Origin: Mycolicibacterium parafortuitum
Lineage (GTDB): Bacteria; Actinomycetota; Actinomycetes; Mycobacteriales; Mycobacteriaceae
Reading direction: 5' to 3'
Assembly (NCBI RefSeq): GCF_010725485.1
Contig: NZ_AP022598.1
Span: forward strand, 5,980,197-6,044,196
Length of the DNA stretch: 64,000 nucleotides
Translations under genes and position numbers: made by a program
The notes under the pieces: model-generated
The model's input: only the letters and a program-made list of their open reading frames with translations
Database searches by the model: none
Told to the model about the DNA's origin: nothing
In this document: positions 12,500 through 16,243 of the stretch, in pieces
How the letters are laid out: the number at the start of each line of letters is the position of its first letter
Position numbering within the stretch: position 1 is the stretch's first letter

Positions 12500-12931
12500 G
12501 TGCCTCACGTCCCAGAACATCCCCCGGCCCCGCCGGAGCGCTTCGTGTGCCGAACCGCGCTCTTCGACACCGACTGGCCGCAGCCTGACACCGCCGTCGT
12601 CGCCGGCCGCGGTGAACTCGATGCCGCCAACGGCCATCTGTTCGTCGATTACGCGCTGCGCCACCCCGACAGAACCCGATGGCTCATCGTCGACTTCTCG
12701 GGTCTGTCGTTCTTCTCCACCGCCGGGTTCTCGGCGCTGCACACCCTCAACGTGCGCTGCGCGGGCGACGACATTCGCTGGGTGCTGGTCCCCGGCCGGG
12801 CCGTCACCCGGGTACTGCGGCTGTGCGATCCGGATGCGGCGCTACCGGTGAGCCCCGACGTGCCGAGCGCGCTGGTGGCCGTCCACGACGCGCCGCGTCA
12901 GTCATTCGAGCTGGTCACGGAGCCGCGTTAG
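12500..12931 (+). CDS. STAS-domain protein, candidate SigF-pathway anti-anti-sigma factor
   Basis: A 143-residue single STAS domain protein. The signature loop reads LIVDFSGLSFFSTAGFSALHTL, where SpoIIAA-type antagonists have D-S-S-G; a serine is retained one position off (FFSTAG). Start GTG 12500 has a GGAG site. The gene is convergent with sigF and its last 30 nt overlap the sigF 3' end, so it lies beside the sigma factor and its RsbW/UsfX inhibitor. M. tuberculosis regulates UsfX with STAS proteins (RsfA, RsfB) encoded elsewhere; a matching role here is inference from context. Confidence 0.8.
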   Translation: MPHVPEHPPAPPERFVCRTALFDTDWPQPDTAVVAGRGELDAANGHLFVDYALRHPDRTRWLIVDFSGLSFFSTAGFSALHTLNVRCAGDDIRWVLVPGRAVTRVLRLCDPDAALPVSPDVPSALVAVHDAPRQSFELVTEPR

Positions 12932-13693
12932 CGACTTCGCGAGCAGCCGCGACACGTGCATCTGCGAGATGCCGACGCGTTCGGCGATCTGAGTCTGCGT
13001 CATCGACTCGAAGAAACGCAGCACGAGCACCGTCCGCTCCCGCTCCGGCAGGGCCGCCAGCAGCGGGCGCAGCGCCTCGCGGTTCTCGATCTGATCGAGC
13101 GTCAGGTCGACGTCGCCGAGGGTGTCGGCGATCGCGGGGGCTTCCTCGTTCCCGCTGCCGCCGCCGCTGTCGATCGACAGCGTGTTGTACGAGCTACCGG
13201 CGACCAGGCCTTCGATGACCTCGTCGCGGTCCATCTCCAGCTCGGCGGCCAGCTCGGTCGCGGTCGGGGCGCGGCCCAGGCGTTGGCTCAGTTCGGCCGT
13301 CGCGGCGCCGAGCCGAAGATGCAGTTCCTTGAGGCGTCGCGGCACCTTGACCGACCAGCTGTTGTCGCGGAAGTGCCTGCGGACCTCCCCCATGATCGTC
13401 GGCACCGCGAAGGACACGAAGTCCGACCCGGCGTTGACGTCGAAGCGGATGACGGCGTTGACAAGGCCGACGCGGGCCACCTGGACCAGGTCGTCGCGCG
13501 GCTCACCGCGGCCGTCGAAGCGGCGGGCGATGTGATCGGCGAGCGGCAGGCAGCGCTCGACGATGCGGTCGCGCTGACGCTGAAACTGTGCCGAGCCTTC
13601 CTCGAGTTGGGCCAACTCTCGGAACATGTCGGCAACGTCGGAGTATTCAGAGTTCGACCGCGGTGATGAACCCTTGGGCGACGGCCGGGTCAC
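12902..13693 (-). CDS. sigF: Alternative RNA polymerase sigma factor SigF
   Basis: Group 3 sigma factor (263 residues) for stress and stationary-phase genes. Region 2 (residues about 45-115: LADHIARRFDGRGEPRDDLVQ, FVSFAVPTIMGEVRRHFRD), region 3 (about 120-175) and region 4 with its helix-turn-helix (TQTQIAERVGISQMHVSRLL) are all intact. The GTG start overlaps the rsbW/usfX stop by 4 nt, the conserved coupled arrangement in mycobacteria that keeps sigma and anti-sigma balanced. Its 3' end overlaps the convergent STAS gene by 30 nt, so transcripts of the two are antisense there. Confidence 0.97.
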   Translation of the reverse strand: MTRPSPKGSSPRSNSEYSDVADMFRELAQLEEGSAQFQRQRDRIVERCLPLADHIARRFDGRGEPRDDLVQVARVGLVNAVIRFDVNAGSDFVSFAVPTIMGEVRRHFRDNSWSVKVPRRLKELHLRLGAATAELSQRLGRAPTATELAAELEMDRDEVIEGLVAGSSYNTLSIDSGGGSGNEEAPAIADTLGDVDLTLDQIENREALRPLLAALPERERTVLVLRFFESMTQTQIAERVGISQMHVSRLLAKSLTRLRDQLE

Positions 13694-14121
13694 TGCAACG
13701 AACTCGCTCGCCTCGTCGTCATCGAGATGCCGAATACCTCGGCGTTGTCCACCTGCCCGTCATTGAACGTGGTGACCTCGTCGGTCAGCGAGCTCAGCAC
13801 ATGCCAGCTGAAGCTGCCCGGGGCCAGGATGTCGGTGCTGTCGCACGTCGTCGACGCGTGCACCACCAGCGCGTCGGGCTGCGGATCGACGACGACCAGC
13901 AGCGTCGAGTTCGGCACCGCCGAGCGGATCAGTCGCGTACACGCCTCGTCGACCGCCAGCCGGAGGTCGGCGACGGCGTCGAAATCGAGGTCCTCGAAGG
14001 TGCCGATCGCGGCGACCAGTGTGCGCAGCACCGCCAAATTCTCCAGCGCCGCCGCAACTCGGAGTTCTACCGATTGCGGGCTGAGACGCTGTCCATTGCT
14101 GTGGCTCGCAACATCGGCCAT
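13690..14121 (-). CDS. rsbW: Anti-sigma-F factor RsbW/UsfX
   Basis: HATPase-type anti-sigma factor of 143 residues that holds SigF inactive. The core AIGTFEDLDFDAVADLRLAVDEACTRLIRSA is nearly identical to M. tuberculosis UsfX, and the N-box-like DEACTRLI is present; the C-terminus APGSFSWHVLSSLTDEVTTF also matches. ATG 14121 is chosen because a GGGAGG ribosome-binding site precedes it and the length then matches UsfX; an open frame continues upstream to 14193. A SigF-type promoter lies 29 bp upstream of this start, consistent with autoregulation. Confidence 0.94.
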   Translation of the reverse strand: MADVASHSNGQRLSPQSVELRVAAALENLAVLRTLVAAIGTFEDLDFDAVADLRLAVDEACTRLIRSAVPNSTLLVVVDPQPDALVVHASTTCDSTDILAPGSFSWHVLSSLTDEVTTFNDGQVDNAEVFGISMTTRRASSLQ

Positions 14122-14149: not shown

Positions 14150-14176
14150 TTACCCCAGGCTGAAGCGCCGTTATCC
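14150..14176 (-). promoter_or_regulatory. Putative SigF-dependent promoter of rsbW-sigF
   Basis: On the minus strand GGATA, 16 nt, then GGGTAA, close to the mycobacterial SigF consensus (GGWWT-N16/17-GGGTAY). It lies 29-55 bp upstream of the rsbW start, as expected for the known autoregulated usfX-sigF promoter. Confidence 0.72.
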
Positions 14177-14206
14177 ATGGGCGCTCCGGGCATTCACCAG
14201 CGCATC

Positions 14207-14233
14207 GGTTAGCGGCCATCCGGCACCGGGTAT
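14207..14233 (+). promoter_or_regulatory. Near-consensus SigF-type promoter for a 42-residue ORF
   Basis: GGTTA (14207-14211), exactly 16 nt, then GGGTAT (14228-14233): the -10 is perfect and the -35 differs from GGTTT by one base. It is divergent from the rsbW promoter. The next ATG begins 10 nt after the -10 element, so the transcript would be leaderless or nearly so. Confidence 0.75.
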
Positions 14234-14242
14234 CCGGTGCGG

Positions 14243-14371
14243 ATGGACCAGAATGCCAAACCCCTGCGCCGCATCCTGGTGATCGTCGGCACCGTACTGG
14301 CGGTGATCATCCTGATCGGAGTGGCCATCTATGCGGGCGCGTTTCTGATGCTGGCGCCGATGATGCAGTGA
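14243..14371 (+). CDS. 42-residue single-span membrane protein, candidate SigF-regulon member
   Basis: A short ORF reading MDQNAKPLRRILVIVGT, then a strongly hydrophobic stretch of about 25 residues (VLAVIILIGVAIYAGAFLML) and the end APMMQ. The basic LRR before the hydrophobic segment predicts an N-in single-pass membrane protein. There is no ribosome-binding site, but the start codon lies 10 nt after a near-perfect SigF -10 element, fitting leaderless translation, which is common in mycobacteria. It is divergent from rsbW-sigF. I do not recognise a family; a small stress-induced membrane protein is inference. Confidence 0.6.
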   Translation: MDQNAKPLRRILVIVGTVLAVIILIGVAIYAGAFLMLAPMMQ

Positions 14372-14615
14372 TGCGGTTGAGTTCATGGTGGCGCTCCCAT
14401 ACCCGTCGGTCGGTGACAGCCAAACCATGCGTGCGTTCGGCATGACAGCCACTTACCCCGGCGCGCTCGCCACTAATCCAGCAAAACCGTTGCTGCTGAA
14501 TGACGTTCGTTGAGACACCGGTCACCCGTTTAGCCGCCGGAACGCCCGGGAAGCCTCGGAGTGACTCCAGAGGGGCGCGCACCGGCCCCGGTCACCCACG
14601 AACGAAAGGCACACC

Positions 14616-14852
14616 ATGAGCGACAAGAACAGCGGACCCGAAGAGGGCATCAAGGGCGTCGTCGAGGACGTCAAGGGCAAGGCCAAGGAAACCATCGGCA
14701 CCGTCGCCGGCCGTGACGACATGGTCCAAGAGGGCAAGGCCCAGCAGGACAAGGCCGACGCACAGCGCGAGGTCGCGCAGAAGGAAGCCGAAGCCGAGTC
14801 GGCGCGCGCCGGCGCCAAGGCCGCGGAGAAGCGCCAGGAAGCCAACCAGTAA
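14616..14852 (+). CDS. CsbD-like stress protein (UPF0337)
   Basis: A 78-residue hydrophilic protein of the CsbD family, often induced by general-stress sigma factors. The family core EEGIKGVVEDVKGKAKETIG followed by the long charged, alanine-rich helix (KAQQDKADAQREVAQKEAEA) is complete. Start ATG 14616 follows a GAAAGG site. Its place next to the sigF locus agrees with a stress role; a possible upstream promoter (GTTT-N16-GGGAAG) is only a partial SigF match. It ends just before a strong terminator. Confidence 0.85.
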   Translation: MSDKNSGPEEGIKGVVEDVKGKAKETIGTVAGRDDMVQEGKAQQDKADAQREVAQKEAEAESARAGAKAAEKRQEANQ

Positions 14853-15934: not shown

Positions 15935-16243
15935 TCAGCTGTTGGGTCGTTGCCGCCAGGCGCCGGGATGCTCGGCATACCAGCGCTGTTCGAGTCGGCG
16001 GACCCGATGGTGCTCGACCATCAGCCACGCTCCCCCGACCAGGAATCCGGCGAGGGCGATACCGCCCAGCAGGATTCCGGACTCGTGGTGGGCGGTCGCG
16101 AACGCCGAGAGCATCGCGACGAAACTGACCATCGACAACCCGATCACCACCAGCGCGGGCATGATCTTGTTGTCTTTCATCGATTCCCCGGCGTGCGGAC
16201 GCGTGGTGCGCACGTGGTCCACTGGATCGTTGGGACCCTTCAT
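15935..16243 (-). CDS. usfY: UsfY-like membrane protein of the SigF locus
   Basis: A 102-residue protein starting DPVDHVRTTRPHAGES, the N-terminal signature of M. tuberculosis UsfY (Rv3288c), followed by two hydrophobic segments (MPALVVIGLSMVSFVAMLSAF and ILLGGIALAGFLVGGAWLMV) and a basic end EHHRVRRLEQRWYAEHP. ATG 16243 has an AAGGAG ribosome-binding site. It lies 32 nt downstream of the Rv3289c-like gene on the same strand and probably shares its SigF-type promoter. The molecular role of UsfY is not known. Confidence 0.85.
   Translation of the reverse strand: MKGPNDPVDHVRTTRPHAGESMKDNKIMPALVVIGLSMVSFVAMLSAFATAHHESGILLGGIALAGFLVGGAWLMVEHHRVRRLEQRWYAEHPGAWRQRPNS

Follow-up and report, generated by a model that had tools for sequence, protein, structure and literature searches.

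A predicted SigF-transcribed leaderless gene for a membrane microprotein lies antisense within the rsbW-sigF leader of mycobacteria

Mycobacteria, opportunistic pathogens included, use SigF as their general stress sigma factor. In a 64,000-nucleotide stretch at the end of the Mycolicibacterium parafortuitum genome, which is a single contig (hereafter, the stretch is called the window), a 42-codon ORF with its own SigF-type promoter sits upstream of the operon encoding SigF and its anti-sigma factor. Is this ORF a gene and, if so, might its transcription bear on sigF itself? Note that those parts of the SigF literature that we covered contain no statement of what limits SigF positive feedback at the DNA level.

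On the minus strand, sigF (12902 to 13693) follows rsbW, also called usfX (13690 to 14121, with the first base of the ATG at 14121), which encodes the anti-SigF factor and matches HATPase_c_2. A plus strand gene for a STAS-domain protein (12500 to 12931) ends convergently within the 3' end of sigF, with a 30-nucleotide overlap; the fold is that of anti-anti-sigma factors. The small gene is also on the plus strand. As the initial annotation had described, the motif GGTTA-N16-GGGTAT precedes it, at 14207 to 14233. Here, the -35 element matches at 14207 to 14211, the -10 element matches at 14228 to 14233 and, after 9 nucleotides, an ATG at 14243 opens a frame of 42 codons (14243 to 14371, ending with TGA). 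Compared to the published SigF consensus, GGWWT-N16-17-GGGTAY (PMC7693655), the last base of the -35 element is A instead of T. The longest possible ORF has 44 codons, via an in-frame GTG at 14237, and this GTG is just 3 nucleotides from the -10 box.

The initial annotation had also stated that rsbW-sigF has its own SigF-type promoter, and that the small ORF is divergent from this operon. The first statement is right but incomplete, since there are two candidates. The proximal site, GGATA-N16-GGGTAA, is upstream of rsbW (14176 to 14150, minus strand). The better, distal site, GGTTT-N17-GGGTAT (14426 to 14399, minus strand), begins 27 nucleotides past the stop codon of the small gene. The second statement is too simple; the distal site is 3' of the ORF, points back at rsbW-sigF and is convergent with the small gene's promoter. 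Because of this, the small gene is predicted to be nested, antisense, in the sigF operon leader and between convergent SigF-type promoters. If both transcripts start at the 9-nucleotide offset, they would begin at 14243 (plus strand) and 14389 (minus strand) and overlap by 147 nucleotides. A 71-codon frame antisense to the small gene (14171 to 14386, minus strand) opens with the ATG of an ACC-ATG (14389 to 14384), 3 nucleotides past the putative distal transcript start.

The next plus strand gene (14616 to 14852; NF050175) encodes a CsbD-like microaggregate-binding protein 1, and is a possible second cistron of the small gene's transcript. By eye, a SigF-like GTTTA-N15-GGGAAG is found upstream, at 14528 to 14553 (plus strand), and relatives have a similar stretch. 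The CsbD-like gene may be another SigF output. The usfY gene (15935 to 16243, minus strand; NF041247, E 2.5e-41) is approximately 1.8 kb from rsbW in the window, separated from it by the small gene, the CsbD-like gene and one more ORF. No sigma-70 promoter or intrinsic terminator was found between 14100 and 14700 and, at the gathering score, Rfam had no match between 13900 and 14900.

Conservation across relatives had been named as a check on the ORF, and the outcome is in its favour: the frame and C-terminus are kept, as are the spacing of the start and the location next to sigF, and substitutions are of the coding type. A search with the single window sequence found a family match in 36 of 148 genomes of the genus. 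With a profile of 19 rows, 64 of 198 sampled Mycobacterium genomes matched at E <= 6e-7 (an automatic tally of 85, at E <= 0.01, takes in chance matches inside long proteins). All 64 lie upstream of rsbW, at a distance of at most 1.3 kb. At E <= 1e-80, sigF itself was matched in 189 of the 198 genomes, and regions upstream of rsbW were gathered from 180 of these. At E <= 1e-4, 67 of the 180 loci have a family match, with all 64 profile-positive genomes included. We defined a locus as intact if its family frame is accompanied by a GGGTA-type box that has a start codon 2 to 29 nucleotides past it. So defined, 46 of the 180 loci are intact and 21 family-matching loci, which are broken or have no box-start pair, fall outside the class. 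Four loci (G076, G109, G036 and G080) are not intact by this definition, yet have long frames. The 113 loci with no family match divide into 35 with a plus strand promoter-like site only, and 78 with neither; they include weaker remnants in G010 (E 2e-4) and, by eye, in G045, G047, G079, G106 and G121. Intact ORFs are on the strand opposite rsbW, with the sole exception of genome G077. Here, the ORF is relocated to the same strand as rsbW, approximately 0.6 kb upstream, and GGGTAC is still 9 nucleotides before the ATG.

A scan of named genomes gave 35 loci, all of them beside rsbW-sigF. Carriers include M. vaccae, M. iranicum, M. hippocampi, M. elephantis, M. tusciae, M. simiae, M. genavense, M. 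persicum, M. gastri, M. scrofulaceum and M. nebraskense, and the protein encoded by the M. parafortuitum locus (L140) is identical to that of the window. M. tuberculosis, M. smegmatis, M. abscessus, M. avium and M. marinum are absent from these 35 loci, which were searched for with one C-terminal pattern. Outside the genus we saw nothing convincing: 201 genomes sampled across the family gave 3 matches, all within the same genus, and 200 sampled across the order gave one weak extra-genus match, inside a 542-aa frame (G398, E 4.7e-5). Judged by these samples, the microprotein is genus-restricted.

The predicted product, MDQNAKPLRRILVIVGTVLAVIILIGVAIYAGAFLMLAPMMQ, has the basic N-terminus (K6, R9 and R10) and the single hydrophobic span that the initial annotation had recognised. 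The hydrophobic stretch is approximately 28 residues long (19-residue Kyte-Doolittle maximum of 3.24, from residue 11), consistent with a single-pass membrane microprotein. In intact loci the length is between 39 and 70 aa. For 19 independent pairs of microprotein ORFs, pN/pS is 0.52. In 500 randomisations, the value was 0.93 +/- 0.09, with a minimum of 0.69, and none of the 500 came down to 0.52; the five other frames, in the same comparison, gave 0.73 to 1.69. For the full set of 574 pairs, drawn from 44 genomes and with pS between 0.03 and 0.6, the median dN/dS is 0.38. The pN/pS of 0.52 is a moderate constraint and overlaps with values for decayed copies, which range from 0.41 to 1.17, with a median of 0.74 (15 listed pairs of 36, which are not independent).

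Constraint is also evident at individual positions. When 42 distinct sequences from 44 of the intact loci were compared (all but G096 and G112), Y30 and P39 never varied; L19, L37 and M40 differ in one sequence each, F34 differs in two, and M41 in five. Of the periods tried, the conservation moment of the alignment peaks at 100 degrees, and permutation tests for the helix period gave uncorrected p values of 0.038, 0.004, 0.003 and 0.051 for four overlapping stretches. Since conservation is strongest at the 100 degree period, this suggests that one helix face of the microprotein packs on a partner. Given the comparative evidence, we have high confidence that the small ORF is a real gene.

We found no match for the family in protein databases that name such groups. 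At 0.001, the window protein does not match Pfam, and the 19 alignment members have only weak matches to scattered Pfam families (best E 0.011). With NCBIfam, 4 alignment members reached E <= 1, the best of them scoring 16.5 bits where the cut-off is 40. Nor does the microprotein match NF041247 (UsfY), and among solved structures it produced one chance-level match (E 0.56). The suggestion that the ORF is too short for routine gene callers proved mistaken. Callers do find the family: from 7991 candidates scored, 765 protein clusters match the profile. The 120 listed clusters carry names such as 'hypothetical protein' and 'uncharacterized', or stray labels like 'predicted exporter', and many are nameless. 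Among the titles and abstract openings that our literature searches listed, none described the small gene. By these searches, the microproteins are a new, nameless, predicted membrane family that has no Pfam or NCBIfam match and would join SigF regulons.

Is the promoter conserved with the ORF? In all 46 intact loci the start codon is 9 or 10 nucleotides past the GGGTA box, where 2 to 29 was allowed (44 were scored as such; G000 and G027 were scored at a GTG, with a gap of 3, and have the real ATG at 9). Note that the box belongs to the definition of intact, so its presence is partly definitional, but the narrow gap is not. In the named-genome scan, which searched only gaps of 8 to 11, the gap is 9 or 10 in 33 of 35 loci; L157 and L171 (M. 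genavense) have no clean promoter-start pair. Mostly, intact loci combine a 16-nucleotide spacer with a gap of 9, or a 15-nucleotide spacer with a gap of 10, so the distance from the -35 element to the start is nearly constant. The -35 element itself is loose, being GGTTA in 13 of the 46 loci, GGTTT in 1, GGTTG in 8, CGTGT in 8 and other sequences in 16. The strict motif, GGTTW-N15-17-GGGTAW, occurs 12 times in the whole genome that holds the window (G000, 6.04 Mb), compared to 5 times in the reversed control. This is an enrichment of approximately 2.4-fold and, hence, one match alone is weak evidence. Two of the 12 are within this one 220-bp locus. The small gene's mRNA likely starts at the A of the ATG at 14243, and is probably leaderless and under SigF control.

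Most loci also have a facing promoter. With a rule of at least 4 of 5 matches in the -35 element, plus GGGTA, an opposing SigF-type site is present in 44 of 46 intact loci, with the near end 15 to 69 nucleotides from the first base of the stop codon. The site is missing by this rule in G077 and in G112, which has a GGGCAT version. All 35 loci of the named-genome scan have an opposing SigF-type site within 300 nucleotides. Among the 113 loci with no family match, the minus strand site (GGGTA form) is present in 73, compared to 4 for the reversed control. If GGGCA is also allowed, 160 of all 180 loci have the distal site. A purine is found 9 nucleotides after the distal -10 element in 143 of these 160 loci, which fits the predicted start sites; an ATG follows at 12 nucleotides in 107, and ACC is just before that ATG position in 98. 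Frames from this ATG have between 6 and 121 codons, with the start often conserved and the peptide not. A near-leaderless leader ORF of the sigF operon is possible. As the true coding frame of the locus, the minus strand was rejected, both on this range of lengths and on the pN/pS of the reverse frames (0.74, 0.73 and 1.69, compared to 0.52 for the sense frame).

The small gene has been lost repeatedly. Counting well-supported branches of the rsbW tree alone gives a minimum of 10 changes in the intact state, and the poorly resolved tree as drawn gives 23. Decay takes two forms: slow growers have lost the ATG, and then the frame, while the promoter and 3' end are kept, and rapid growers have lost the hydrophobic part and kept the promoter and start (slow and rapid grower labels were assigned by resemblance to named loci). 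The plus strand promoter-like site in 35 of 113 family-negative loci compares with 1 in the reversed control and 3 in the complement control; the CGTGT form of the -35 element was admitted post hoc to the decay scans, and the controls were run under the identical rule. In 31 of the 35, an ATG or GTG is at 9 or 10 nucleotides (8 to 11 were looked at) and opens a frame of 9 to 59 codons; since the genomes are related, these are not 31 independent events. The 59-codon frame, in G032, resembles a different gene (a plus strand frame in G155), so its promoter-like site may be unrelated. The same scan, with the same post hoc -35 form, found the plus strand promoter in 10 of the 21 decayed loci. Six slow growers that are related to one another (L113, L116, L121, L125, L127 and L128) share a nearly invariant block of approximately 45 bp around the plus strand promoter, and have a scrambled ORF body. 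This invariant block includes the spacer; a promoter alone needs no fixed spacer.

Other features lie near the locus in some relatives. In many rapid growers (L007 and several of L068 to L088) a plus strand gene, with a product beginning MRLRRS, starts directly after the distal promoter. We take this to be a type IB topoisomerase gene. The plus strand transcript could run into it and, in these rapid growers, the plus strand promoter is possibly retained for a downstream gene. Some rapid growers without the ORF (L079 and others) have a strongly conserved GACGTGTG-type block at the position of the plus strand -35 element, and some such blocks contain a near inverted repeat (GACGTGTGCCACACGTC in L079). 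The block is possibly a regulator site. In several slow growers, a usfY-like frame, identified by eye, adjoins the small gene's locus; the frame is on the plus strand in G115, and in the other orientation in G064, G074, G076 and G007. Overall, the microprotein appears dispensable and is often lost, and the promoter tends to outlast the peptide. Since 134 of 180 loci are without an intact ORF plus promoter, an essential role is not expected.

Our preferred reading, to which we assign a probability of roughly 0.72, is of a SigF-transcribed leaderless gene, for a genus-restricted membrane microprotein, nested antisense in the rsbW-sigF leader. In mycobacteria, stress is known to release SigF from RsbW. 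The sequence and conserved spacing suggest that RNA polymerase with SigF would then initiate at approximately 14243 (plus strand), generating an mRNA that opens with AUG for leaderless translation. By the positive-inside rule, the peptide would enter the membrane with its basic N-terminus inside. It may then dock on a membrane partner via its conserved L19-Y30-F34-L37 face and PMM end. The protein's most likely role, we propose, is that of a membrane accessory peptide, induced by SigF and equipped with a single binding face. SigF polymerase would also initiate at approximately 14389 (minus strand), and transcribe into rsbW-sigF, with a transcript overlap of approximately 147 nucleotides. Our estimate extends to this anatomy and stops short of its effect. 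Collision or antisense pairing within the overlap could conceivably damp the positive loop of SigF, but we consider this improbable on balance. Nevertheless, the small gene's SigF-type promoter faces, head-on, the one from which further SigF is made, so the gene might serve the stress response as a product and, at the same time, restrain the SigF switch; with promoters in this arrangement, sigF could plausibly limit itself. A fuller version of this idea, held just as tentatively, is of a built-in brake: the leaderless antisense mRNA would hit, or pair with, the leader, and selection would keep the promoter and +1 start, with the peptide an add-on that is kept, deleted or replaced depending on the species. 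In any case, a conserved and nameless SigF-type output, together with facing promoters of the same sigma type, offers a testable model for feedback in cis.

The foremost alternative is that the protein alone matters. The gene would then be an ordinary SigF-regulon envelope microprotein, acting as a small accessory subunit, and the facing promoters would be a by-product of a compact intergenic region. We put the chance of this at somewhat under even. The coding constraint (pN/pS of 0.52) and conserved helix face fit well, as does the relocated copy in G077, which keeps its own promoter in a place where no opposing SigF site was found. Furthermore, work cited in PMC6448022 holds that most bacterial antisense transcripts may be noise. 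What a role for the protein alone fails to predict is persistence of the promoter after the peptide has gone, both in the 35 of 113 family-negative loci, 31 with a start at the same spacing, and in the slow growers where the block of approximately 45 bp outlives a scrambled ORF.

Such remnants are better accommodated if the function lies in the transcript, or in promoter firing, through cis-antisense effects or transcriptional interference at the sigF operon, with the peptide secondary or a lineage-specific gain. The convergent geometry of 44 of 46 intact loci, and retention of the promoter and start without the ORF, are as expected from this, and SigF-driven antisense RNA that lowers the level of a protein has a precedent in M. 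smegmatis (AscarD and CarD; PMC8820732). However, the peptide is under purifying selection and has a conserved C-terminus, the copy in G077 has relocated, 78 of 180 loci have neither a family match nor a recognisable plus strand promoter and, by the scan used, only 10 of 21 decayed loci keep that promoter. We consider this reading unlikely.

In type I toxin-antitoxin systems, synthesis of a small hydrophobic peptide is checked by an opposing RNA. The locus could be a unit of this sort, with the rsbW-sigF leader as the opposing, 3'-overlapping, RNA. The size (39 to 70 aa), single hydrophobic stretch, patchy distribution and repeated decay are all compatible, as is the position of the opposing promoter, 3' of the gene, from which such an RNA would arise. 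However, both promoters are of one sigma type and, therefore, the two RNAs would be made together. Moreover, the mRNA is predicted to be leaderless, rather than long-leadered, no family match was obtained, and the conserved helix-face residues suggest a specific partner. We consider a toxin-like unit very unlikely. Finally, open frames are abundant in GC-rich DNA, and the strict motif has 12 genome matches compared to 5 in the control, but that the ORF opposite the sigF leader and its promoter motifs both arose by chance is extremely unlikely, and was ruled out by conservation of the frame, spacing and C-terminus, with a coding-like substitution pattern.

How does the proposed gene compare with known systems? 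UsfY is a membrane protein and, like the microprotein, is a small protein encoded near sigF. Unlike UsfY, which has an unrelated sequence, the microprotein is encoded on the plus strand of the window, with usfY on the opposite strand. In mycobacteria, an AUG or GUG at +1 is both required and enough for leaderless translation (Shell et al. 2015, PMC4633059), and the same study reports one small ORF that keeps its leaderless start while the peptide is unconserved. Our ORF resembles those leaderless small proteins in being short, with an ATG predicted at the mRNA 5' end. It differs in that the peptide family is conserved across a good part of the genus and in being tied to SigF-type promoters, antisense in the sigF leader. 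The rsbW-sigF operon is autoregulated from an upstream SigF-dependent promoter (PMC7693655, PMC4694148) and, in M. smegmatis, the SigF promoter sits upstream of chaB (PMC7693655). SigF-type promoters are likewise present here; in the sections of these two papers that we covered, no mention is made of a gene nested behind a SigF promoter that faces the operon. For AscarD, a SigF promoter fires antisense to carD and lowers CarD protein (PMC8820732), and our locus similarly has a SigF-type promoter antisense to another gene. The difference from AscarD is that the antisense RNA would double as an mRNA and would act on the very operon that encodes SigF.
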